Assembly: GCF_900176505.1 (NCBI RefSeq)
Contig: NZ_FWYB01000002.1
Span: 645,237-709,236, forward strand
Reading direction: 5' to 3'
Length of the DNA: 64,000 nucleotides
DNA from: Pedobacter nyackensis
Lineage (GTDB): Bacteria > Bacteroidota > Bacteroidia > Sphingobacteriales > Sphingobacteriaceae
Part shown: in pieces, positions 12,152 to 40,048 of the stretch
Position numbering within the stretch: position 1 is the first letter of the stretch
How the letters are laid out: the number at the start of each line of letters is the position of its first letter
Notes under the pieces: generated by a model
Databases searched by the model: none
What the model was told of the DNA's origin: nothing
Seen by the model: the letters and a program-made list of their open reading frames with translations, nothing else
Translations under genes and position numbers: made by a program

Positions 12152-13234
12152 ATGAATGCTATATCCCGTTTCTTCTGGTTTTGTTCAGGTGTGCACATCT
12201 CAACGTTAGAGAAGCACTCAACAGAACAGAACAAGTACATAGGTATCGGTGCCACCATATTCTTTACCGGACTATTTGCAGCCCTATCAGGTGGTTATGC
12301 CATGTATTTTGTTTTTAAGGGAGCTGAGGGAGCTGTGTTCTTCGCCCTGTTTTTTGGCATCATCTGGGGCCTGGCCATTTTTAATATGGATAGATATATC
12401 GTATCCAGCATCAATAAAAGCGCTTCTACGAACAAGCAAATCCTGCAGGCTACTCCACGGATCTTATTGGCCATCATGATCGGGATTGTAATTTCCCGCC
12501 CGCTGGAGCTTAAAATATTCGACAAAGAGATCAAAGAACGTTTAAAAGTCAGCTACCTAAACAATCAGCGCTCAAATATCGATACCCTGAACGCAGCCTT
12601 CGAAAACAAATATGCCATAGAAATGGGCAAACTAAACGATGCCAAAGCACAAAGAGATTCGATGGCCAGCGCCATAAAAACCGACCGACAGAAGCTGAAC
12701 TTTGAAATATTCGGAAATAAAACCACCGAAACTTCGGGAGTAATGGGCTATGGGCCCTACGCCAAAAGAAAAGAAGCAGAATTGAAACAAAGGGAACAGA
12801 ACCTGGATACCTTAACAGCTGATGTTCGTACGCTTGAAAAGTTTATCGATAGTCGAAAGCAATTTGATGGCCTGATGACCGAAAAACTATATACAGGGAA
12901 GCAATTGGATAGTCTTGCCAATATCGCTGGCTTTGCAGACCGAAACTGGGCGCTCGGCCAGCTTAGTTTTAACCGGGATGGATCGAGAGACACGAGTACC
13001 TATCTTGCTGTAACATTTATAGGATTATTGTTTATTTTTTTTGAATGTCTGCCTGTTTTCGTAAAATTGATGAGCAGTAGAGGGCCGTACGACAATTCAG
13101 TAGAAAATATTGAGATAGCCCAGGAGTATGAATCCGACAAGGACAAAGATTTTGAAATAGCTGCCATAGATGGGGTGCACGATACACGGGTATCCACAGA
13201 AATTGAAAAAAGAAAAAACCAACTTTACGAATAA
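12152..13234 (+). CDS. DUF4407-family membrane protein
   Basis: The 360-residue protein opens with MNAISRFFWFCSGVHISTLE and has hydrophobic segments near residues 28-50, 55-72, 105-120 and a final one near 280-300. The central 150 residues are charged and predicted coiled coil (EMGKLNDAKAQRDSMASAIK, KEAELKQREQNLDTL). This is the layout of DUF4407 proteins, whose function is not established. It lies 17 bases before the M28 peptidase gene. Confidence 0.82.
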   Translation: MNAISRFFWFCSGVHISTLEKHSTEQNKYIGIGATIFFTGLFAALSGGYAMYFVFKGAEGAVFFALFFGIIWGLAIFNMDRYIVSSINKSASTNKQILQATPRILLAIMIGIVISRPLELKIFDKEIKERLKVSYLNNQRSNIDTLNAAFENKYAIEMGKLNDAKAQRDSMASAIKTDRQKLNFEIFGNKTTETSGVMGYGPYAKRKEAELKQREQNLDTLTADVRTLEKFIDSRKQFDGLMTEKLYTGKQLDSLANIAGFADRNWALGQLSFNRDGSRDTSTYLAVTFIGLLFIFFECLPVFVKLMSSRGPYDNSVENIEIAQEYESDKDKDFEIAAIDGVHDTRVSTEIEKRKNQLYE

Positions 13235-13251
13235 ATAACAAATATATACTG

Positions 13252-14208
13252 ATGAAAAAAACCTTTTACACTTTATTAGCCTTGCTGTTTACCCAGTTCT
13301 CATGGGCGCAGGACATCAATAAAATTATAACCGCAGAATATGTGGACGGGCTAATAAAAACCCTAAGCAGCGACGAAATGGAGGGCAGAGCGACTTTTAG
13401 TCCGGGCATTGAGAAGGCCGCCCAATTTATTGAGTCGGAGTTTAAAAGCATCGGACTCCTGCCACTGGAAGGAGAAACCGGATTCAGACAAAGCTTCGAA
13501 TTAAAGGGAAAACCACTGTTTAACGTTGCAGGGATCATTCCCGGTAAGTCCAGAGCCAAAGAACTGGTAGTCATTTCAGGACACTACGACCACCTGGGCA
13601 TCATGAAGGTAAAAGACGGTCAGCAAGACAGTATTGCCAACGGCGCTGATGACGACGCTTCGGGTATTACCGCTATGATTGCATTGGCAAAATACTACAA
13701 AGCATTAAATAACAATGAGCGCACCTTAGTTTTTGTGGCCTTTACAGCCGAAGAAATCGGAGGCTTCGGTTCAAGACATTTCTCCAAGAAACTCAACCCG
13801 GATGATGTAGTGGCGATGTTTAACATTGAAATGATCGGAAAAGAGAGCAAATTTGGTAAAAACACGGCTTTTATTACAGGCTATGATAAATCTGACTTTG
13901 GTAAGATCCTTCAAAAAAACCTAAATGGCACACCGTTTACTTTTCATCCTGACCCATACACCAAACAGAACCTGTTCTACAGGAGTGACAATGCAACACT
14001 TGCTGCATTAGGTGTCCCTGCTCATACGATCAGTACCGATCAAATCGATACAGATCAGTTTTATCATACAGAAAAAGATGAATACAGCACATTAGATACT
14101 GCGAATATACTAGCAACCATTAAAGCTATTGCACTTAGCGCTACAAGTATTATCAAGGGGATTGATACCCCCTCAAGGATTCCAAGATTGGTAGAGCAGC
14201 ACGATTAA
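13252..14208 (+). CDS. Secreted M28-family zinc aminopeptidase
   Basis: The 318-residue protein has a signal peptide ending in FSWAQ. The M28 motifs follow in order: SGHYDHLG (His and Asp ligands, near residue 111), NGADDDASGITAM (bridging Asp), FTAEEIGGFGS (base Glu and Glu ligand), NIEMIGK (Asp is replaced by Glu-Met in the usual spot) and AHTIST with the last His. It is probably periplasmic. The leader AACAAATATATACTG before the ATG closely resembles the leader after the hairpin elements at 31.7 and 39.4 kb, although no hairpin is present here. The stop overlaps the opposite GNAT gene by four bases. Confidence 0.87.
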   Translation: MKKTFYTLLALLFTQFSWAQDINKIITAEYVDGLIKTLSSDEMEGRATFSPGIEKAAQFIESEFKSIGLLPLEGETGFRQSFELKGKPLFNVAGIIPGKSRAKELVVISGHYDHLGIMKVKDGQQDSIANGADDDASGITAMIALAKYYKALNNNERTLVFVAFTAEEIGGFGSRHFSKKLNPDDVVAMFNIEMIGKESKFGKNTAFITGYDKSDFGKILQKNLNGTPFTFHPDPYTKQNLFYRSDNATLAALGVPAHTISTDQIDTDQFYHTEKDEYSTLDTANILATIKAIALSATSIIKGIDTPSRIPRLVEQHD

Positions 14209-29925: not shown

Positions 29926-29976
29926 ATGAAAAAATCATGATAGCTTCATCACAAATAAAAAACAAATTATATTCTA
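29926..29976 (+). repeat. Stop-to-start element, copy A (shortened hairpin)
   Basis: It begins four bases after the stop of the epimerase gene and runs to the start codon of the enolase gene. It keeps the conserved right arm TCATGATAGCTTCAT (29935-29949) and the 27-base A-rich leader (CACAAATAAAAAACAAATTA at its start), but only ATGAA is left of the left arm. It is related to the complete copies at 31645 and 39395. Confidence 0.7.
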
Positions 29977-31143
29977 ATGAAAATAACTAATGTAGAAGCA
30001 TTTTGGTTACGTTGCCCAATTCCTGAAGCAAAACAACACACTTCAGACTATGGGCTGCTCACCAATTTTGACATGACCCTTGTAGTGATAACAACAGATT
30101 CAGGATTACAGGGATTTGGAGAAGCCAAAGCTGCGGTAGGCTCTTCCGGAATATGCGCTTCCATTGTAAATTGTATCGAAAATGAACTGAAACCCGTACT
30201 GCTGGGCAAGTCTGTAAAAGACATCACCCGCCTCTGGGAAGAAATGTATAACGGAACAAGAGACCACTATGCGTTGTCAAGGGGAAGAAAATTTCCTATC
30301 CTTGGCAGGCGGGGCCTTACCATATCCGCCATGAGTGGCGTTGATACGGCGTTATGGGACCTTAAGGGAAAAATGCTGAACGTTCCCATACTGGACTTGC
30401 TGGGTGGGGCCTGCAGAGCGAAAATGCCCGCTTATGCAAGTGGAGGCTGGGCAGATGAGGAGAATATCGGCGAACAATTGAAAGGCTACGTGAGTAAGGG
30501 GTTTAAAGGGGTGAAGATGCGTGTTGGGGTGATGGACGATACTGTGCAGAAAAGCATAAACAGGGTAAAGGCTGCGAGAGCTGCGCTGGGGCCGGATATC
30601 AAATTGATGGTAGATGCACATGGAACTTTCAGCGTACCGGAGGCGAAGCAATTTTGCAGGGGTGTGGAAGACTGTAATGTATATTGGTTTGAAGAGCCCA
30701 TCAGTCCTGACAATAGGAAAGGAACAGCAGAGGTAAGGGCTTCCACCCACATACCCATCGCCGCAGGCGAAAGTGAGTTTACCAGCTTTGACATCCATGA
30801 TCTCTTACAAATCAGGGCTATAGATGTTATCCAGCCGGATGCCGCCATCATTGGTGGTATTTCAGAGGCGATGCGCGTAAGCCACCTGGCAAGTGTACAT
30901 CAGGTAGAGCTGGCACCTCATTGCTGGGGTTCGGCCTTTTCTTTTATGGCCGGGCTAACCGTAGCATTTGCCTCAGCTTCTGCAACTATTATTGAGTTTT
31001 CTCTGGGCGGAAACCCTATGATGTACGAGCTGGTGAACGAACAGATCTCTGTTATAAATGGTGAGATCAGCGCGCCCTCAGCTCCGGGATTGGGGCTAAC
31101 CCCTAACTGGGATTTTGTGAAACAGTTTAAGCAGTCAGTTTAA
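29977..31143 (+). CDS. Mandelate racemase / muconate lactonizing enzyme family protein
   Basis: The 388-residue enolase-superfamily protein has an N-terminal capping domain and a barrel with KMRVGV (K-x-R base, near residue 171), VDAHGTF (Asp ligand, near 208), FEEPISP (Glu), AAGESEF (third ligand) and ELAPHCWGSAF with a His at about 312. A KxR/His pair is the mandelate-racemase-like arrangement, used in acid-sugar dehydratases; the substrate is probably a sugar acid. It lies ten bases before the VOC gene. Confidence 0.87.
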   Translation: MKITNVEAFWLRCPIPEAKQHTSDYGLLTNFDMTLVVITTDSGLQGFGEAKAAVGSSGICASIVNCIENELKPVLLGKSVKDITRLWEEMYNGTRDHYALSRGRKFPILGRRGLTISAMSGVDTALWDLKGKMLNVPILDLLGGACRAKMPAYASGGWADEENIGEQLKGYVSKGFKGVKMRVGVMDDTVQKSINRVKAARAALGPDIKLMVDAHGTFSVPEAKQFCRGVEDCNVYWFEEPISPDNRKGTAEVRASTHIPIAAGESEFTSFDIHDLLQIRAIDVIQPDAAIIGGISEAMRVSHLASVHQVELAPHCWGSAFSFMAGLTVAFASASATIIEFSLGGNPMMYELVNEQISVINGEISAPSAPGLGLTPNWDFVKQFKQSV

Positions 31144-31153
31144 ATCATTACTT

Positions 31154-31645
31154 ATGGCAAAAGCACTTAAAATTAACCACGTTACCCTCATCGTAGATAA
31201 CCTGGAAAAAGCAGGCGAGTTTTACAAACAAGAACTAGGCCTTGAACCGCTACCCGCTTTTCGGTTCGATTATCCCGTGATGTTCTTCAAATTTAATGAT
31301 GAACAGCAATTGCATATTTCGGAATGGGAAGACCGCACTTCATTTCGCGGGCATATCTGTGTGCAGGTAGACGATTTCAGCAGCATCTTCTTTCGCATGA
31401 AAGAACTGAACGCTATAGACGTAAATCCCTGGGGAAAAGTAAGAAAGCTGCCTGATGGTGCCATGCAGATGTTTGTGCGTGATCCTTCAGGCAACCTGGT
31501 AGAGATTTCTTCTATACCAGGAGCGGAAGTGGATGACCGCATCTTTAAAGATGAATTGTACGAAGAGGGCCTGTATGTTTCAAAAAGAAACGATTTCAGA
31601 GGATTAAAATCTGACGACGCTACTTTGTATCACAACAAGCCATGA
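31154..31645 (+). CDS. VOC-family (glyoxalase/extradiol dioxygenase fold) protein
   Basis: The 163-residue protein has a single vicinal-oxygen-chelate domain: INHVTLIVDNLEKAGEFYKQ at the start (His as first metal ligand), LHISEWEDRTSFRGHICVQV near residues 53-72, and FVRDPSGNLVEISS (Glu ligand) near residue 116. Members do isomerisations or dioxygenations; the role here is unclear. Its stop codon TGA overlaps the first base of element copy B. Confidence 0.82.
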   Translation: MAKALKINHVTLIVDNLEKAGEFYKQELGLEPLPAFRFDYPVMFFKFNDEQQLHISEWEDRTSFRGHICVQVDDFSSIFFRMKELNAIDVNPWGKVRKLPDGAMQMFVRDPSGNLVEISSIPGAEVDDRIFKDELYEEGLYVSKRNDFRGLKSDDATLYHNKP

Positions 31646-31783
31646 TGAAACCATCATAAGCATAACAGCTTACAAACAGCAATGAACCGAGCTTGCGAGC
31701 TCATGAATGCAATTAAACAATAAGAGCTAATGAATAATATGCTTATGATAGCTTCATAACCTTTAAAAAGAAAATATATACTG
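31645..31783 (+). repeat. Stop-to-start element, copy B (hairpin plus leader)
   Basis: The left arm (31645-31664, ATGAAACCATCAT then AAGCATA) and the right arm (31738-31757, TATGCTT then ATGATAGCTTCAT) pair over 20 bases with two mismatches. The 73-base interior includes ACAAACAGCAATGAA, shared with copy C, and a 50-base addition containing GAGCTTGCGAGCTC and a twofold GAGCTnATGAAT. A 26-base leader (AACCTTTAAAAAGAAAATAT at its start) ends at the ATG of the dehydrogenase. Confidence 0.82.
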
Positions 31784-32716
31784 ATGAAAAACGTATTGTT
31801 GCTTGAAACCATCGCAGAGGAAGCACTAGCGGTATTGCAGGAAAATGTGAACGTATTCACAGGATACGATGAAGCCGAATTAAAAGATGTCCTGAACAAT
31901 GTGGAAGTACACGCCATCATTACGAGGGGAAAAAAGCATATAGATAAGGTTTTGATGGAAGGCTGCCCCCATTTACAGGTGGCAGCCAGATGTGGTGTGG
32001 GCCTGGATAATGTAGATGTGGCCGAAGCAACTGCAAGAAAAATCAGGGTGATCAATGCCCCTGGCAGTAATGCTGCCACCATTGCGGAGCATACCCTCGC
32101 CTTAATGCTGATGTTAATGCGCGATATGTACAGATCGGTGGACCGTGTTAAACAGAACGACTGGAATTGGCGCAATCAATATGCTGGTGATGAGCTGAAC
32201 GGCAAAACCCTTGGCATACTGGGAATGGGAAATATCGGAAAACGGGTGGCCAGACTGGGAGAAGCCTTTGGTATGAAAGTCCTGTACTGGAGCAGATCAG
32301 CACAGGGCCAGCCTATGGAAGAAGTATTGCAGCAATCTGACATAGTCAGTCTGCACCTCCCCTTAAGCAATGAAACGAATGAGATAATCGGAGCAGCACA
32401 ACTCGCATTGATGAAGCCACGGGCATTCCTGATCAACACGGCAAGGGGTGCGCTGATAGATCATTTAGCACTCCTGGATGCTTTGAACGCGGGGACCATT
32501 GCCGGTTTTGCTGCAGATGTGCTGCCAGATGAACCACCTGTGCAGAGCCTGGCTGTTGTACAGCACCCGGCTGCGATTGTTACACCGCATTCCGCCAGCC
32601 TTACCGCATCCACATACCGGCAGATGTGTCTGCTTACCGTAAATAATGTAGTGGCAGTACTTACAGGCCGGCAGCCCGAATTAAACAGCGTATATAACCG
32701 TAACTCGTTTGTATGA
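31784..32716 (+). CDS. D-isomer-specific 2-hydroxyacid dehydrogenase
   Basis: The 310-residue protein has a Rossmann NAD motif GILGMGNIGKRVARLGEAFG near residue 145 and the catalytic set of the family: Arg in NTARGALIDH near 226, Glu in DVLPDEPP near 252 and His in TPHSAS near 271. It reduces a 2-keto acid or oxidises a D-2-hydroxyacid with NAD(P). It is the fourth gene of the cluster, immediately after element copy B. Confidence 0.88.
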   Translation: MKNVLLLETIAEEALAVLQENVNVFTGYDEAELKDVLNNVEVHAIITRGKKHIDKVLMEGCPHLQVAARCGVGLDNVDVAEATARKIRVINAPGSNAATIAEHTLALMLMLMRDMYRSVDRVKQNDWNWRNQYAGDELNGKTLGILGMGNIGKRVARLGEAFGMKVLYWSRSAQGQPMEEVLQQSDIVSLHLPLSNETNEIIGAAQLALMKPRAFLINTARGALIDHLALLDALNAGTIAGFAADVLPDEPPVQSLAVVQHPAAIVTPHSASLTASTYRQMCLLTVNNVVAVLTGRQPELNSVYNRNSFV

Positions 32717-32737
32717 TAATCATTAATCCTTATTAAG

Positions 32738-33595
32738 ATGAATACTTTTTTTGCAGGTTTATTGTTAACCCTAAGTACAGTGTTGTTCTGTGCGCCATCT
32801 CCGAAAAAGACTAAAAAGCCACTCGTGGTTTTTGTGTGTGGAGATCATGAATACAGTGGTGAAGAAACCCTTCCCATCATTGCGGCAGAACTGGAAAAGA
32901 ACTATGGCATGAGGGCCGTCGTTCTCAAAGCATCTCCGGACCACAACAGCGAAGAGAATATTCCAGGGCTGGAAGTATTAAAGGATGCAGACTTAGCCAT
33001 TTTCTATTTGCGCTGGCGAAGACTTCCTCCTGAACAGCTTGCCCATATTGAAGCCTACTTGAAGTCGGGAAAACCTGTGATGGGTTTCCGCACCACTACA
33101 CATGCATTCAATTTTCCCAAAGGGCATGTCAGCGAAAAATGGAATGCCTTCGGGGAGTTTGCATTGAATACGCCTCCGGGCTGGGGAGGCAAAGCTAAAC
33201 ATACACACTATGGACACAATAGCAGCACAGATGTGAGCATCGTTCCCAAAGCATCCGGCAACCCTATCCTCACAGGAGTAGCAAAGGATTTTTACGTTCG
33301 CTCATGGTTGTACCATGTGGTGCCGGATTATCCGCTGAAAGGCTCTACTATCTTGCTCACAGGCAAAGCGGTAAACCCGCAAAGAGCAGCTGTAGAAAAC
33401 CCCGTTGCCTGGACTGGCACCAACGCTTTCGGTGGAAAGATTTTTATGACCACGCTTGGCCATCCCGAAGATTTCAGGATAGAATCTTTTCAGCGGCTCG
33501 TGATCAATGCCGTTCACGATGAACTAGGCCTGAAAGTGCCAAAGAAATGGAAAGGTAAAATGGATATCCAGGTACCTTACCGTGTTGCTAAATAA
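32738..33595 (+). CDS. Secreted ThuA-like domain protein
   Basis: The 285-residue protein has a short signal peptide (FAGLLLTLSTVLFCAPSPK) and a ThuA-like class I glutamine-amidotransferase-type fold: LVVFVCGDHEYSGEE, then DLAIFYLRWRRL near residue 87, KPVMGFRTTTHAF near residue 110 and a final MTTLGHPEDFRIESFQR. ThuA-like proteins are linked to carbohydrate use; no enzyme activity is assured. The following gene lies 14 bases on. Confidence 0.78.
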   Translation: MNTFFAGLLLTLSTVLFCAPSPKKTKKPLVVFVCGDHEYSGEETLPIIAAELEKNYGMRAVVLKASPDHNSEENIPGLEVLKDADLAIFYLRWRRLPPEQLAHIEAYLKSGKPVMGFRTTTHAFNFPKGHVSEKWNAFGEFALNTPPGWGGKAKHTHYGHNSSTDVSIVPKASGNPILTGVAKDFYVRSWLYHVVPDYPLKGSTILLTGKAVNPQRAAVENPVAWTGTNAFGGKIFMTTLGHPEDFRIESFQRLVINAVHDELGLKVPKKWKGKMDIQVPYRVAK

Positions 33596-33609
33596 ATCCG
33601 TCAGAGATC

Positions 33610-36600
33610 ATGAGACTAATAAAGATCAGCTTGCTATGCCTCTTTGCAATTGTACCTGCAGCGGTAATTATAAACGCCTTTAAATATAAAGATACTCCAC
33701 TAGCCATTGCTAAAGGGACGCGTATTGCCTTGATTGGCAACAACCTGGGATCGAGAATGATCAACTATGATAATTTTGAAACAGAACTGCAGCTTCGTTT
33801 TCCAACGCATGAATTATTCATCCGCAATATGTGCGACGAGGGGGAAACGCCTGGCTTCCGGCCTCATGCCAGCAGGAATTCTCCATGGGCCTTTCCCGGT
33901 GCAGAAAAGTTCCAGGTAGAAAGGGCAAACCTTGTAAAAAGGAAAGATGCCGGTGGCACATTAGAAATGGATGACCCCGGTGAAGGTTTTTTTGAGACGC
34001 CTGATCAATGGCTCAGCAGACTCAAAACGGATGTGATCATTTCCTTTTTTGGATTTAATGAGTCTTTTGCAGGAAAAGCGGGGCTTGACAACTATAAAGC
34101 AGAACTTGATGCTTTTATTAAATGGACACTGAAGCAAAAATATAATGGTACTTCGGCGCCGCAGCTGGTGATTGTTTCACCCATTGCTTTTGAGAACCTT
34201 AGCAGTAAAAGCAGCTACGATCTGCCAGATGGCCGAAAGGAAAATGAAAACCTCCAGCTATACACCAGTGCAATGAAGGAGATTGCTGCACAAAATAAAG
34301 TACGTTTCGTAGATGTATTCAACCCTTCATTAAAATGGTATGCAGCTACTACAGCGCCATTAACCATCGATGGTTCTCAACTGAATGAAGAAGGATACAA
34401 AAAACTCGGGGTATTGCTGGCAGACCAGATCTTTGGGGAAGGTTCTTCCTCGGCAGAAAGCAATAGAAAGCTGGTGCACGATGCCGTAATGGAAAAGAAC
34501 TGGATGTGGTTGAACGATTTCAAAATTCCTAATGGGGTGCACGTATATGGCCGCAGGTATAAACCATATGGGCCAGACAATTTTCCTGCCGAAATAAAGA
34601 AGATCCGTGAGATGACAACGATCAGGGACACTGCTATCTGGCTGGCTGCCGCTAAAGGGACGAAAATGAATCTGGAAGCTGCTGATAAGCATACAAGCGT
34701 TTTACCAGAGGTTAAAACCAACTATACATCCAGCAATAAAACCGGTAGCCTTAAGTATCTCATGGGGCAGGAAGCTGTAAACAGTCTGAAAGTACCTCCA
34801 GGCTACAAGGTGGAATTATTTGCTTCAGAAACGGAGTTTAGCTTCCTGGCCAAACCTGTACAGTTATCGTTCGATAATAAAGGACGGCTGTGGGTAGCCG
34901 TCATGCCCAGCTATCCGCAATATAAGGTAGGAGATGCAAAGCCTAACGACAAGATCATTATTCTTGAAGATACCAACCAGGATGGCAAAGCAGATAAACA
35001 AACTGTTTTTACAGATGGACTCCATTTACCACTCGGTTTTGAGATTGCACCGGAAGGTGTATACGTAGCACAGGGACCTAATCTAATCCTTTTGACAGAT
35101 ACCGATGGTGATGATAAAGCAGATAAGAAAGAAATTTTGTTAAGCGGTTTTGATGACCACGACTCGCACCATAGCAGTCATGCCTTCACAACAGATCCTT
35201 CCGGGGCCATTTATTCGGGCGAAGGGGTGTTCCTCCGTACCAATGTAGAAACTTCCTACGGGCCTGTTTATGCTACCAATGGTGGTTTTTACAGATACGA
35301 CCCACGGCGCAGGAAACTGGAACGCACGGCACAACTGGCCATTCCAAATCCATGGGGCATTACATTCGATGATTGGGGGCAGCCCTTTTATGCGGAAACA
35401 TCTAGTCCCGATTTTCGCTGGATGCTTCCCGGAACAATATTGCCAAGATATGGTCAGGCCACACACAAATCAAGACAACTGATAGAACAGCAGCATCTGG
35501 TACGACCAACATCAGGTATTGAAATTGTATCCAGCCGCCATTTTCCTGATGATATTCAGGGAGATTTCCTGATCAACAATACCATTGGTTTCCTGGGAAC
35601 GAAACAACATACGCTGGAAGACGACGGAACAGGTTATAAAACCCGTTTCCGTATGGACCTGCTGGTGAGCGATGATCCTAATTTCCGCCCGGTAGATCTG
35701 GAGTTTGCACCCGACGGTTCCTTATTCGTAATCGATTGGCATAATATCCTCATCGGGCATATGCAGCACAATGCACGGGACCCCTTGCGTGACCATTCAC
35801 ATGGAAGGATCTACCGCATTACTTATCCTTCCAGGCCTCTGGTAAAACCGGCAAAAATAGCGGGTGCCAGTATAGAAGAACTCCTGGATAATCTGAAACT
35901 GCCCGAGTATCGGACCCGTTACAGGACCCGCCGGGAACTTAGGGGGCGTGATGTTGCTCAGGTACTGGCTAAACTCACAACCTGGGTAGCGAAACTGGAT
36001 ACCAGCGACGCCAGGTATGAACATCATTTACTTGAAGGCCTGTGGGTGAGCTGGGGAATGAACAAAGTAGATCAGCGACTTTTAAAACAAGTATTGAAAG
36101 CGAAAGATTATCGTGCAAGAGCTGCGGCAGTACAGGTAGTACGTTATACCGGACACCAGCTGCCAGACCAGGCGAACTTACTGATGGAAGCCGCCAGGGA
36201 TAAAAATAACCGTGTAAGGCTCACGGCTATTGTAGCTGCTTCATGGATCGGGAAGGAAAAAGGGCTTCCTGTTTTAGCAGAAGCCAGTAAATTGCCGCTG
36301 GATAGCTGGATGGTTCATGCCCATAAAACCGCTGTGGCACATTTGAACGGGAAAAATGTAGCAGAAGAAAAAGTGAAAAAGGAAGAAACAGCGCTCAAAG
36401 GCGCAACACTTGCATTATTTAACCAGGGAAAAATTATTTATAACAAAGAAGGATACTGTACAACTTGTCATCAACCTGATGGCAAAGGGCTCACAGCTGC
36501 AGGCTTCCCCCCGCTTACACCCAATATATGGGTAAACGGGAGTGACGATAGACTCATCAAACTGGTACTGAAAGGCATAATGGGGCCGATAGAGGTAAAT

Positions 36601-36828
36601 GGTAAAAAGTACCCCGGACAAGTTCCTATGACGCCATTTGGAGGCTTATTGAAAGATAATGAAGTAGCAGCAGTATTAACTTATCTCCGTAAATCATTCG
36701 GAAATAACGGGCCTGCTATTTCTCCGGAGAAAGTGAAAGCAGCAAGGAAGGCCACCGAAACTAAAAAGGATTTCTATACAACAGAACAATTACTGAAAGA
36801 ACATCCAATGGAAAGGGCGAAAAGATAA
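33610..36828 (+). CDS. Large SGNH-hydrolase / propeller dehydrogenase / HEAT / cytochrome c fusion protein
   Basis: The 1072-residue protein has a signal sequence and four parts. Residues about 35-280 look like an SGNH/GDSL hydrolase (RIALIGNNLGSRM, FFGFNESF, IDGSQLNEEGYKKLG). From about 395, PPGYKVELFASE starts the PVC-type propeller with DTNQDGKADK repeats. A HEAT-like stretch follows near 830-900. A cytochrome c domain is last, with the haem motif CTTCH (Cys950, Cys953, His954) and a later Met ligand candidate in PGQVPMTPFGG. Family relatives oxidise sugars at the cell surface or periplasm; the substrate here is inferred only from the cluster. Confidence 0.82.
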   Translation: MRLIKISLLCLFAIVPAAVIINAFKYKDTPLAIAKGTRIALIGNNLGSRMINYDNFETELQLRFPTHELFIRNMCDEGETPGFRPHASRNSPWAFPGAEKFQVERANLVKRKDAGGTLEMDDPGEGFFETPDQWLSRLKTDVIISFFGFNESFAGKAGLDNYKAELDAFIKWTLKQKYNGTSAPQLVIVSPIAFENLSSKSSYDLPDGRKENENLQLYTSAMKEIAAQNKVRFVDVFNPSLKWYAATTAPLTIDGSQLNEEGYKKLGVLLADQIFGEGSSSAESNRKLVHDAVMEKNWMWLNDFKIPNGVHVYGRRYKPYGPDNFPAEIKKIREMTTIRDTAIWLAAAKGTKMNLEAADKHTSVLPEVKTNYTSSNKTGSLKYLMGQEAVNSLKVPPGYKVELFASETEFSFLAKPVQLSFDNKGRLWVAVMPSYPQYKVGDAKPNDKIIILEDTNQDGKADKQTVFTDGLHLPLGFEIAPEGVYVAQGPNLILLTDTDGDDKADKKEILLSGFDDHDSHHSSHAFTTDPSGAIYSGEGVFLRTNVETSYGPVYATNGGFYRYDPRRRKLERTAQLAIPNPWGITFDDWGQPFYAETSSPDFRWMLPGTILPRYGQATHKSRQLIEQQHLVRPTSGIEIVSSRHFPDDIQGDFLINNTIGFLGTKQHTLEDDGTGYKTRFRMDLLVSDDPNFRPVDLEFAPDGSLFVIDWHNILIGHMQHNARDPLRDHSHGRIYRITYPSRPLVKPAKIAGASIEELLDNLKLPEYRTRYRTRRELRGRDVAQVLAKLTTWVAKLDTSDARYEHHLLEGLWVSWGMNKVDQRLLKQVLKAKDYRARAAAVQVVRYTGHQLPDQANLLMEAARDKNNRVRLTAIVAASWIGKEKGLPVLAEASKLPLDSWMVHAHKTAVAHLNGKNVAEEKVKKEETALKGATLALFNQGKIIYNKEGYCTTCHQPDGKGLTAAGFPPLTPNIWVNGSDDRLIKLVLKGIMGPIEVNGKKYPGQVPMTPFGGLLKDNEVAAVLTYLRKSFGNNGPAISPEKVKAARKATETKKDFYTTEQLLKEHPMERAKR

Positions 36829-36903
36829 TATGTCCAGATTCGCCGATCTCAAACTCTTTTATTAGGGACTAAGCTAAAGAAAACCAACAGCTCCCATAAT
36901 AAG

Positions 36904-38163
36904 CTATCCTGTAACTAATGTAAATGCAGGAGACATGGTCTCCTGGTCGGCGCGTGATATCCCCAATTTCGATGCTAATGCCCGCCAATCCTTAGTGACC
37001 ATAACGATTTCATCGAGAATTTTATCCATCTGATCTTTATTAAGCTGGAAAAATTGACCAACACTTTTAGCTAGCTCGAAATCCAGCGCATTATTATCCA
37101 TATCAACATTTAAAGCCAGTCCATTTTTATCTATTGAGGGATTAATATCATAGGCGGGTGATAATCTCCAACCTTTTTCTTCCAGCAGAAATCCGTGGTT
37201 TCTAAAATGATCGTCGGTATTGGAGATCGCCATATGAAATACTATCCGCCTCCACAATTGATGTAAATCCGCCTCTATGTTTGAACCATATGTTTGTATA
37301 AATTCGGCTATTTCAAGGTAACTCGGGGTCGCATCTCTAATGGTATCTTCACTGTTCCTTGTCATGGTCATTGCTGATGCGAAATGAATCCGTTGCTCTG
37401 CTTCCCTATCAAACCGCCTCGACAAAAATGTATGATATGGCGCCCTTACCTTTTCAAGAGTGCAGATAGGCATATTAATTCCTGCTCTGCAGGCTAGTTC
37501 GTATGCCAGGTATTCCCATGCTGCTTTGTCAGTTGTGTCAGCTTTTGAAGGAAACTTTGCAATACATAGGTGACCATCTAAATCTATAACATTTGCTTTC
37601 GGCCGAGCTCCACCCAATGACGATCCGGGTGCAAAAAGAATTGGAATCCATTCATCTCCATTTTTTCCTTCCTCATCCTCTTCATATGCTTTAACACTGG
37701 CCTGCAACTCTCGCAAATGCGTTATTGGTGGGGTTGGATTATCCTTGTTGTCATCTAGAAAGGGACCGTTAGGGTCCAACTTAAATCGGAGTGCACCCAT
37801 TCTTGAAACATCGTGGACGCCCAACAAGAAGTCAATTTCGTATAGTTTTGGTGTTGACTCTCCTTTTACGAGCGCTGTTTGTGCAGCACGGCGAAGCATG
37901 AGTTTTCTCCCCCATGTATCGGGCATCGAATCCATAAATACACCAAAATTGTCTTTTTTATCTGGATATTGAGTTCCTGAGTATAATCCAATTTCGGGAT
38001 CAAGCAAGAATACCTGATCTGACTTTAGCCAGTCTTTATCGTACTCAAAACCGAATATTCTGCTCCCTTTACTTTGCTGTGCAGATATTACACCAATGCA
38101 TTTCGAGGCATCCATACCTTTCCAATGAGCATACACCCATATATCTGTTTTCGTTGCTGCCAT
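36904..38163 (-). CDS. hipA: HipA-family serine/threonine kinase (toxin of a type II module)
   Basis: The 419-residue protein has the HipA landmarks: the nucleotide-loop segment SSLGGARPKANV (residues 181-192), Lys203 in IAKFPSKAD, the catalytic NTDDHFRNHG (315-324) and the metal motif LSPAYDINPS (335-344). HipA kinases phosphorylate aminoacyl-tRNA synthetases and stall growth; the target here is unknown. The start overlaps the hipB stop (TAATG), so the pair is coupled. Confidence 0.9.
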   Translation of the reverse strand: MAATKTDIWVYAHWKGMDASKCIGVISAQQSKGSRIFGFEYDKDWLKSDQVFLLDPEIGLYSGTQYPDKKDNFGVFMDSMPDTWGRKLMLRRAAQTALVKGESTPKLYEIDFLLGVHDVSRMGALRFKLDPNGPFLDDNKDNPTPPITHLRELQASVKAYEEDEEGKNGDEWIPILFAPGSSLGGARPKANVIDLDGHLCIAKFPSKADTTDKAAWEYLAYELACRAGINMPICTLEKVRAPYHTFLSRRFDREAEQRIHFASAMTMTRNSEDTIRDATPSYLEIAEFIQTYGSNIEADLHQLWRRIVFHMAISNTDDHFRNHGFLLEEKGWRLSPAYDINPSIDKNGLALNVDMDNNALDFELAKSVGQFFQLNKDQMDKILDEIVMVTKDWRALASKLGISRADQETMSPAFTLVTG

Positions 38164-38453
38164 TAGGTTAACAGATCTAGATCCTGAAGTTTTCTACCAA
38201 GCTCATCATCAACAGCCAGTTTAAGGAAATCCTCCTGTAAATTTAATGCCCTTAGCACATTGAAATAAGCCCCCATAGATACACTAGGATCACCTCTCTC
38301 TATTTTTCGAAGGGTTAGCCTTTCAATAGCAGCGCGTTCAGCAAGCTGAATGGCAGTCAGTTTCCTACGTTTTCTCGCCAACTTGATATTCTCACCAAGC
38401 TGGTCCCAAATTTTTTGATACTTGGGAAAGATCACAGCCTTCCTTGATTTCAT
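38163..38453 (-). CDS. hipB: HipB-family antitoxin, XRE helix-turn-helix
   Basis: From the ATG at 38453 the protein has 96 residues with the XRE helix-turn-helix LTAIQLAERAAIERLTLRKI. Upstream TTG (38474) would place the start inside the operator palindrome and is rejected. It should bind the palindromes before the gene and neutralise HipA. A Lys/Arg-rich N-terminus (MKSRKAVIFPKYQKIW) and an acidic C-terminal tail flank the helix-turn-helix. Confidence 0.87.
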   Translation of the reverse strand: MKSRKAVIFPKYQKIWDQLGENIKLARKRRKLTAIQLAERAAIERLTLRKIERGDPSVSMGAYFNVLRALNLQEDFLKLAVDDELGRKLQDLDLLT

Positions 38454-38455
38454 AA

Positions 38456-38504
38456 TGGATATTATTATATCCAAATATAACTAAAATAGATATAATAGTA
38501 TCCA
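38456..38504 (-). promoter_or_regulatory. Operator pair in the hipBA promoter region
   Basis: TGGATATTATTATATCCA (38456-38473) is a perfect 18-base palindrome. A second copy, TAGATATAATAGTATCCA (38487-38504), keeps most positions, with centres 31 bases apart (about three helical turns). The half-site TATCC also occurs in the operators of E. coli HipB (TATCC-N8-GGATA), but there the half-sites face the other way. Confidence 0.75.
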
Positions 38505-38644
38505 TTTTAGTTATATAGTTATCACTAATAGCTCTTTTTTCATTTATGAAATTTGATTTTTAAGGTGAATGAATCAATATGCATCAAAGTCATCCATAAT
38601 GGGATGCTGTACCTTAAAAACGGCATACTGGCAACGGCCCCTTA

Positions 38645-39409
38645 ATGGAACCGACTTATGAGGATTGTGATGGTATTGCTGTCCCACAGGACACCATAGG
38701 TGGCATAGTATTACCCCCATTGTCAAATCCAACGGATACATTAAATAAAATTATGAGGAATACCAATTTATCTGAGGCACAACTGGCAAAACTAAGGACT
38801 ATGTTGAGCAGGTTTTTATCTGGAGATGGTAATGAAAGATGGGCATGTATCCACAAACAGCTGTATAGGCATATGGCGTCGAATAATTTAAAATTCGACT
38901 TTATGATGAACTCAAATAATCTTGTACCCCAGTCCTATAATCCGGTGACTTCAACATTTTCCTTCTTGAATGATGATTCATTTAATTATCCAAATATTTT
39001 CGAGCATGAATTTTTTCATGCCTTTCAGGATATGTTTATCGCTACTGATACCTATGCCATCGCTACCTCAGAAGGCTATCCTGATGGCTATACAAATATT
39101 GAATTTGAAACAGCAGTATTTACCGACCTCTTGAAAACCAATACTGTGGAATATGGTGCATTTATGAATGCAGATGAAGAATTGAGAGAAGACTATAGTG
39201 GTTGGCTTAATTTAATAAAAGATAATAACAAGAAATACCCCACAACATTTGATGATTTTCAGGGCAGATACAATTTCTTCTTAAAGAAATTCCAATTTAA
39301 CTCCGGATACGCTGATAAAGGACAAATACTTCTTAATATGAAACCGGTATCTTTACTTGAAGTTTTTTTCAACTTCTCCATGCAAATAAATCCTATGAAA
39401 CCATCATGA
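38645..39409 (+). CDS. Truncated hypothetical protein with an HExxH motif
   Basis: The 254-residue frame has no signal peptide and a Pro/Asp-rich start (DCDGIAVPQDTIGGIVLPPL), typical of the middle of a longer secreted protein, so it looks 5'-truncated; the frame is closed by a stop 28 bases upstream. It contains NIFEHEFFHAFQD with an HExxH zinc-peptidase motif near residue 120 and EFETAVFTDLL near 158. The last codons ATG AAA CCA TCA TGA are the left arm of hairpin copy C, so the element supplies the C-terminus and stop. Probably a pseudogene or remnant. Confidence 0.65.
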   Translation: MEPTYEDCDGIAVPQDTIGGIVLPPLSNPTDTLNKIMRNTNLSEAQLAKLRTMLSRFLSGDGNERWACIHKQLYRHMASNNLKFDFMMNSNNLVPQSYNPVTSTFSFLNDDSFNYPNIFEHEFFHAFQDMFIATDTYAIATSEGYPDGYTNIEFETAVFTDLLKTNTVEYGAFMNADEELREDYSGWLNLIKDNNKKYPTTFDDFQGRYNFFLKKFQFNSGYADKGQILLNMKPVSLLEVFFNFSMQINPMKPS

Positions 39410-39481
39410 GTTTACACTCACAAACCGAAATGAATAAACTCATGATAGCTTCATCACCTTTAAAAAACAAATTATATACTG
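39395..39481 (+). repeat. Stop-to-start element, copy C (hairpin plus leader)
   Basis: The left arm (39395-39414, ATGAAACCATCAT then GAGTTTA) and the right arm (39435-39454, TAAACTC then ATGATAGCTTCAT) pair over 20 bases around a 20-base interior (CACTCACAAACCGAAATGAA). The outer 13-base parts equal those of copy B, including the same two mismatches. The inner seven bases differ but still pair. A 27-base leader ends at the ATG of the next gene. Confidence 0.85.
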
Positions 39482-40048
39482 ATGAAAAATATCCTCTTAA
39501 TCGTGTTTTTATGTTTTGCACTAGCGTGCAAAGCACAGCAACCTATTTCAACCATCAACACAACACAGGTCAAAGCTTCTGGTATAACATTTAAAATAAA
39601 AAGAACGACTACTGACAGTGGAAAAGACTATGTTAAAATCTCCAATACTAGGAATAAATTAGATAATGTAAAACAGGTTACGCCTAACCTAAATTTCAGA
39701 TTAAATGTTAACGAATATATATTATTTGATCATGATATTATTAAAGACATATGCGCCTCTGTTATTCCATTAAACGAGCTGAAAAAGATGGCAACAAAGC
39801 GAGGTGGATTATTTATTGCAATGAAGTACAATACCAGGGGCTATCCTTTGGAGTTGGTTTTTTTGATAGAAAAATCATCATTAATTAGCGCAGAGGATCT
39901 GGCTAAAATTGAAACTAGAATCAAAAAAAGTGCTTTTCACATTACCTTTAAAAAGGAAGTCCAGAAATTAGTAGTGGGTGCAAATTACCTTCTTGTTGAC
40001 TTTAGTTATACCTACGCAGAAATACTTGAAGCTAAATCAGGCCGGTAA
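39482..40048 (+). CDS. Secreted or lipid-anchored hypothetical protein
   Basis: The 188-residue protein has a signal region (MKNILLIVFLCFALACKAQQ) with a possible lipobox ending at Cys16 and a mature part rich in Lys and Ile, without a known motif. Neighbours on either side are truncated or immunity-like, so a role as an orphan partner of a secreted toxin is possible, but only from context. It starts directly behind hairpin element copy C. Confidence 0.62.
   Translation: MKNILLIVFLCFALACKAQQPISTINTTQVKASGITFKIKRTTTDSGKDYVKISNTRNKLDNVKQVTPNLNFRLNVNEYILFDHDIIKDICASVIPLNELKKMATKRGGLFIAMKYNTRGYPLELVFLIEKSSLISAEDLAKIETRIKKSAFHITFKKEVQKLVVGANYLLVDFSYTYAEILEAKSGR

Follow-up and report, generated by a model that had tools for sequence, protein, structure and literature searches.

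Three related sequences in a 64,000-nucleotide stretch of the Pedobacter nyackensis genome (assembly GCF_900176505.1, contig NZ_FWYB01000002.1, positions 645,237 to 709,236; hereafter the window) are, judging from sequence comparison and with a probability that we put at roughly 0.68, copies of a small interspersed hairpin that inserts as DNA at ATGAAA, mostly at start codons, and supplies a replacement translation-start region. We read this element as a small non-autonomous mobile repeat. The three copies had been singled out in a preliminary description of the window, made from the letters alone, and they prove to be real and to belong to a large family, since the right arm ATGATAGCTTCAT has 26 exact matches in the 6.08 Mb genome (16 forward and 10 reverse), compared with none for a reversed-pattern control, and a covariance model, R1, finds at least 36 copies. 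For one of the 26 matches, L020, no other part of the element is present, and this match seems due to chance. The copies and their parts are as follows.

Copy A, plus strand, 29926..29976: eroded; assigned by sequence; R1 score 48.8 bits; no stem in its fold
Copy A parts, plus strand: left ATGAAA 29926-29931; right arm 29937-29949; tail 29950-29976; hairpin mostly gone
Copy A right-hand ATGAAA, plus strand, 29977..29982: start of a 388-amino-acid (aa) open reading frame (ORF)
Copy B, plus strand, 31645..31783: long form; assigned by sequence; R1 score 78.8 bits
Copy B arms, plus strand: left 31645-31657; inner 31658-31664 and 31738-31744; right 31745-31757
Nested CCGAGCTTGCGAGCTC-type repeat in the loop of copy B, plus strand, 31686..31733 (approximate boundaries): shared with other long forms
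Copy B tail, plus strand, 31758-31783: followed by ATGAAA at 31784
Copy B right-hand ATGAAA, plus strand, 31784..31789: start of a 310-aa ORF
Copy C, plus strand, 39395..39481: short form; assigned by sequence; R1 score 109.5 bits, the top score in the genome (copy C is among the sequences used to build R1)
Copy C arms, plus strand: left 39395-39407; inner 39408-39414 and 39435-39441; right 39442-39454
Copy C tail, plus strand, 39455-39481: followed by ATGAAA at 39482
Copy C right-hand ATGAAA, plus strand, 39482..39487: start of a 188-aa ORF

Aligned copies share one layout, namely an ATGAAA directly followed by CC, the hairpin, an A-rich tail of 26-27 nucleotides (nt) approximating NACCNTTAAAAAACAAATTATATACTG, and a second ATGAAA, with which the next gene usually starts; the hairpin itself runs, 5' to 3', from ATGAAACC through a variable arm, a loop with ACAAA..AGCAATGAATA and the returning arm to AGCTTCAT, where the tail begins. 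Among 130 copies whose left arm lies within four mismatches, the distance from arm to ATG is 25-27 nt in 113, an ORF of at least 60 aa, or open to the end of the locus, lies downstream in 102, and a same-strand upstream ORF ends no more than 400 nt away (at -15 to 388 nt) in 104; the right-hand sequence is ATGAAA in 124 of 129. The tail up to this ATGAAA belongs to the insert, which corrects the earlier description of an element that stops 26-27 nt short of the start codon. Likewise copy A, thought to keep the right arm only, is an eroded copy that retains the left ATGAAA as well, and a full-length element stands at its site in genome G090. It is loosely true that each copy begins at a stop codon: copy B shares its first base with the stop TGA, and into copy C the upstream ORF runs for 15 nt; the stop-to-start pattern arises largely because insertion takes place at gene starts within operons. 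The genes between copies A and B form an operon that is conserved in relatives.

A second type of the element, detected with a search pattern that left the bases concerned open, has the arms ATGAAACCTGCAT and (A/T)TGCAAGCTTCAT and the same two mismatches as the first. Long forms such as copy B contain in their loop a nested repeat that is absent from short forms, and this CCGAGCTTGCGAGCTC-type repeat is common to the long forms L001, L019, L053 and L065 and to relatives. The repeat (CCGAGCTTGCGAGCTC...RTGA, about 50 bp), also noted in L100, L113 and L210, lies in the tail in some relatives, and it may be independently mobile. A mini-ORF reading ATG AAA CCA TCA TGA was rejected as a general feature, since the stop is missing from the CAGC and GGGC types. 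The copy sets derive from 169 model hits, of which 139 remained after removal of antisense and identical ones and 127 lay within three mismatches per arm; the 119 copies considered below are those of the 127 with an inner part of at least 24 nt, antisense removed, and a further set of 77 loci left out L100, L105, L108-L110 and own-genome duplicates.

Filled and empty sites

At site B, seven relatives are without the insert and have just a few bases between one gene's stop and the following gene's start, where P. nyackensis has 139 intervening bases, and at two further sites, S3 and S4, genome G030 has between matching flanks exactly one ATGAAA in place of the ATGAAA-element-ATGAAA of P. nyackensis. 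Element-free orthologous sites, as expected of a mobile repeat, thus occur at site B, S3 and S4. The ATGAAA at S3 starts just a short ORF, which suggests that the element targets ATGAAA as a sequence rather than the start codon as such. A long target duplication was rejected as a rule, since S3 and S4 share 6 bp and site B 8 bp.

Furthermore, head-to-tail arrays share the ATGAAA between units, and one of them (L013) joins two element types, which favours repeated insertion; the units are about 88 bp long and, in the arrays encountered, hold no ORF or cargo, although no systematic test for cargo was made. By crude ORF calls in loci that were fetched for holding an element, ATGAAA with an element to its left (n=116) falls on 83 gene starts, 30 intergenic positions (at least seven of which lead into another element) and three coding positions, against 174 gene starts, 253 intergenic and 975 coding positions for other ATGAAA (n=1402). 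This distribution fits insertion followed by purging of harmful copies, although a preference for starts may also be behind it.

Compared with 531 native start regions the tail of the element is richer in A (52% versus 39%) and poorer in G (5% versus 13%), its minimum free energy is -0.15 kcal/mol versus -1.30 at native starts (-24 to +6), and of its A peaks those at -12/-11 and -6 coincide with native-start peaks; the tail would presumably start translation. At 13226-13257 the window also holds a hairpin-less start region that resembles the tail, with 22 of 31 matches, and may be a remnant after loss of an element.

The stem, its foot and the fate of inserted copies

The outer arms of copies B and C are identical by sequence and, as their folds confirm, enclose the same two mismatches (A.C and C.A), and the inner arms differ yet pair, all as given in the preliminary description. 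Its suggestion that this is compensatory change under selection for a stem is borne out by a covariation test on many copies: in 81 aligned matches, fitted to R1, 10 of 16 pairs have changed on both sides, 97.0% of cells are paired compared with 88.2% after shuffling, and the covariation score is 0.253, a value reached in none of 500 shuffles, compared with 0.097 after shuffling, and falls to at most 0.083 when the partner is slid by 1-3 columns. Alignments A2 and A3 were fitted to R1, and their pair counts are biased towards its structure. Among copies selected by their ends alone (229, and 197 after removal of similar flanks), pairing over positions 9-19 is seen in 1944 of 2167 cells, the shuffled mean being 1641 and the maximum 1678; this selection required ATGAAACC (one mismatch allowed) and GCTTCAT, so that position 6 could not vary, and freedom is confined to the partner of position 8 on the right and to the positions above.

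At the foot, position 6 is A.C in 114 of the 119 copies, C.C in three and a standard pair in two, and no pair forms at position 8 in 118 of them and in 195 of the 197 end-selected copies, where its right partner is free. With the foot mismatched and the arms paired, it is the sequence that is conserved at the foot and the pairing that is conserved above it. In L109 (1501-1644) the foot, ATGATTGATCAT / ATGATCAATCAT, is fully paired and the usual mismatches are absent, and this copy is a possible test case for pairing between foot and target. A middle segment moreover complements the left inner arm, with four pairs in 79 of the 119 copies (shuffled mean 47, maximum 58), and the element may therefore have two alternative pairings. 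At positions 9-17 the sense strand has 48 G.U against 25 A.C, which is a modest hint of gene-strand RNA. Read from the opposite strand the two foot mismatches turn into wobble pairs, as had been pointed out, and the fold is stronger, at -29.7 kcal/mol (z -8.05) for copy C as compared with -16.6 kcal/mol (z -6.07) for its RNA on the sense strand.

What becomes of inserted copies can be followed at a degP-like gene, for which 33 loci were compared (a few from one genome) and 21 have the element or its remains. The arms read CATC/GATAG in L421 and L309/L423, and nearly so in L424, and CATT/AATAG in most others, with a T.G state in L346/L427. The C-G, T-G and T-A states at this one pair amount to in-step change of one pair at one site, and this single site suggests that some inserted hairpins may have been retained as leader structures. 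Other hairpins at this gene have decayed or are missing, and broken pairs in L433, L437, L441 and L447 speak against such retention; L221 carries the second element type. In L425, L430, L433 and L450 the left and right copies of leader and ATGAAA agree with each other within the genome, which we read as homogenisation between direct repeats or as old arrays; such direct repeats would also permit precise loss.

Distribution, mobilisation and alternative explanations

That the arms occur at this one locus and reflect a simple local duplication, a possibility raised at the outset, is excluded, since they are found genome-wide and in relatives, with R1 matches in 92 of the 99 genomes of the genus, for each of which up to 43 candidates were scored, and, across the order, in 181 of 250 genomes and in 12 of 16 genera. 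In a draw from the class R1 matches 18 of 395 genomes, ten of them from the own family; among the matches listed are Pedobacter, Mucilaginibacter, Sphingobacterium, Olivibacter, Parapedobacter and Daejeonella as well as metagenome-assembled genomes called Segetibacter and Puia. R1 was built from Sphingobacteriaceae copies, and the distant counts are therefore floors. Twenty-one loci from six of the eight genomes of other Bacteroidota families were inspected, and five of the six carry a sister type that resembles the element in loop and tail, ends in ATGAAA and forms arrays, but has different arms (e.g. ATGAAACACCCATGA / TCATGGGTGTTCCAT), mostly with A.C mismatched at position 4; in the sixth (L458) the arms are different again and the ACC/AGC mismatches are the same. 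Sister-type arrays in L467, L472, L477 and L482 share ATGAAA head-to-tail, and some of their units have a different hairpin, ATCCCGATAAATCGGGAT. No Rfam family, RF01715 included, matches the element at gathering score, the E-value limit being 5 for the window stretch and 1 for 20 element loci, in agreement with the earlier statement that no known family fits; the best sub-threshold matches on it are plant microRNA models, and an L20_leader match in L259 (E 0.03) was discarded as lying outside the element. No published description of the element was found in literature covered with few subscription journals, and the string ATGAAGCTATCAT is listed for three papers on clinical microbes.

In the mechanism that we propose, an enzyme encoded elsewhere would recognise the folded stem via its mismatched foot and join the element at ATGAAA, a target that may partly be read by pairing since TTCAT of the element is complementary to ATGAA. 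Insertions in coding sequence would be removed and those at starts would keep translation, so that copies would collect at gene starts, and some hairpins would later be kept as 5' leader structures, with precise loss and homogenisation by way of the direct repeats. A bolder version, which we offer tentatively and regard as doubtful, would make these elements start-codon invaders throughout the Bacteroidota, the hairpin foot TTCAT pairing with ATGAAA, an enzyme that reads mismatched stems joining the element there, its own start region disarming the damage, and native leaders being slowly swapped.

Several observations weigh against insertion of a mobile repeat at ATGAAA. The starts at site B in the seven relatives are not always ATGAAA: three have it, three have ATGAAG, and G071, the nearest relative, has ATGAGG and is one base off the expected pre-insertion site. 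S3 and S4 rest on the single relative G030 and are not polarised between insertion and precise loss, polarity being clear at site B only, and comparison of sites A and S2 with relatives gave no clean pair of filled and empty sites. Of the 33 degP-like loci, 12 are without the element and some of these are likely losses, and several copies there repeat about 15-28 bp, not 6, on both sides. The covariation between copies is furthermore a blend of inherited types and in-place change. No element match was found in plasmid, phage or viral-contig collections, and no autonomous copy with far-apart ends in 407 partly overlapping loci (1.77 Mb), where 198 right arms have a left arm within 200 nt and 17 do not; none of the 17, several of which are chance matches, has a left arm 200-5000 nt upstream. 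Finally, no mobilising enzyme was found in the Y1, RAYT, integrase and neighbour-ORF searches, the last of which covered 306 ORFs with 12 clusters of at least three (SusC/SusD-type, degP-like and others) and revealed no transposase by eye, without a family scan.

Among the three explanations put forward in the preliminary description, a structured translational leader, an attC-like site for gene capture and a small mobile repeat of repetitive extragenic palindromic (REP) type, a mobile repeat fits best, though not in the strict REP sense. A structured 5' leader, that is, a cis-regulatory RNA for gene control spread by duplication or exchange without movement of its own, would account for the sense orientation ahead of gene starts, the in-step states of the degP-like stem, the excess of G.U over A.C and the second pairing from the middle segment. 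It is however in poor agreement with the element-free sites between matching flanks, with ATGAAA sites such as S3 that start no evident gene, with arrays of different types, with the unrelated downstream genes and with the lack of an Rfam match, and while a leader function is plausible as a later use, seen at one site, we consider it unlikely as the origin of the element.

Had a RAYT or another Y1 transposase, since lost here, once mobilised the element as a REP-like repeat, a mismatched, intergenic hairpin in many copies would likewise be expected, and RAYT subclass 2.6 of the Bacteroidetes is described with atypical flanking structures (PMC6006769). Y1_Tnp is, however, absent from the P. nyackensis genome and present in 57 of the 99 genus genomes, in which it bears no relation to element copy number (Spearman 0.014, p 0.89), and the seven genomes richest in copies, one of them (G073) 80% complete, have no Y1. 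The search for a RAYT gene nearby, proposed earlier, gave no support either, as the element is found in none of 20 RAYT-like and in one of 30 IS200-like loci. RAYT or IS200 can thus be rejected as the present driver, and a past one we hold to be quite improbable. In six of the 20 RAYT-like loci, those with the ORF located, other hairpins lie nearby; these are perfect hairpins (L238, L244, L245, L254, L255, L256; e.g. AGTCTTAGC/GCTAAGACT) and possibly the RAYT-like genes' own REP-like structures. Recombination of an attC-like site by a tyrosine recombinase, in integron fashion, would agree with the folded site, the unpaired bases near its foot, the short shared core and the head-to-tail arrays, but it remains an analogy. 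We regard such recombination as highly improbable: the integron integrase TIGR02249 exceeds its cut-off in none of the 99 genomes, the array units seen carry no cargo, and the lower-scoring tyrosine recombinases, which occur in all 99 genomes and in 14 of 14 controls, have no discriminating value. Elsewhere in the window, two adjacent ORFs on the minus strand (36904-38474) look like a kinase of the HipA type and the small DNA-binding protein that accompanies it.

Relation to known systems

If insertion of a mobile hairpin at ATGAAA is the right explanation, the Sphingobacteriaceae, and likely more Bacteroidota, carry a mobile repeat that lands on the commonest start sequence and supplies a translation start, and many leader hairpins would be former insertions. 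Such copies would be natural experiments on translation start in bacteria where Shine-Dalgarno pairing plays a small part, and would hint at an enzyme acting on mismatched hairpins. A covarying hairpin ahead of a gene need not have originated as a regulator.

Integron attC sites have a folded stem, conserved unpaired bases and head-to-tail arrays, all of which the element shares, but its core sequence is another one and neither an integrase over the cut-off nor cargo was seen with it. Miniature inverted-repeat transposable element (MITE)-type repeats and Rickettsia palindromic elements are small and tolerated as genes stay usable, whereas here it is the supplied start region that would preserve translation. 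REPs are short palindromic intergenic repeats, presumed non-autonomous, with subfamilies that have alternative complementary stem bases, and those tagged CGTC have no dedicated transposase (PMC3733652, PMC6006769). The element is also short, palindromic and intergenic with alternative-stem subtypes, but it has neither a GTAG nor a CGTC tag, its ends being ATGAAACC and AGCTTCAT plus the tail; it targets ATGAAA, with direct ATGAAA on both sides and 26-27 nt of tail to the start codon, and is unlinked to RAYT loci. IS200/IS605 elements recognise their target by pairing (PMC6006769), and the element similarly has bases by its hairpin foot that are complementary to the target adjoining its left end; it is however a single hairpin with ATGAAA on both sides, and there is no Y1 transposase in this genome. 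The Pedo-repair RNA motif RF01715, reported as coming from Pedobacter and as possibly cis-regulatory (PMC2864571), resembles the element in these two respects but does not match it. Small palindromic repeats are thus already known, but since the defining features of REPs and attC sites are lacking, the element appears to be a variant kind of such repeats.

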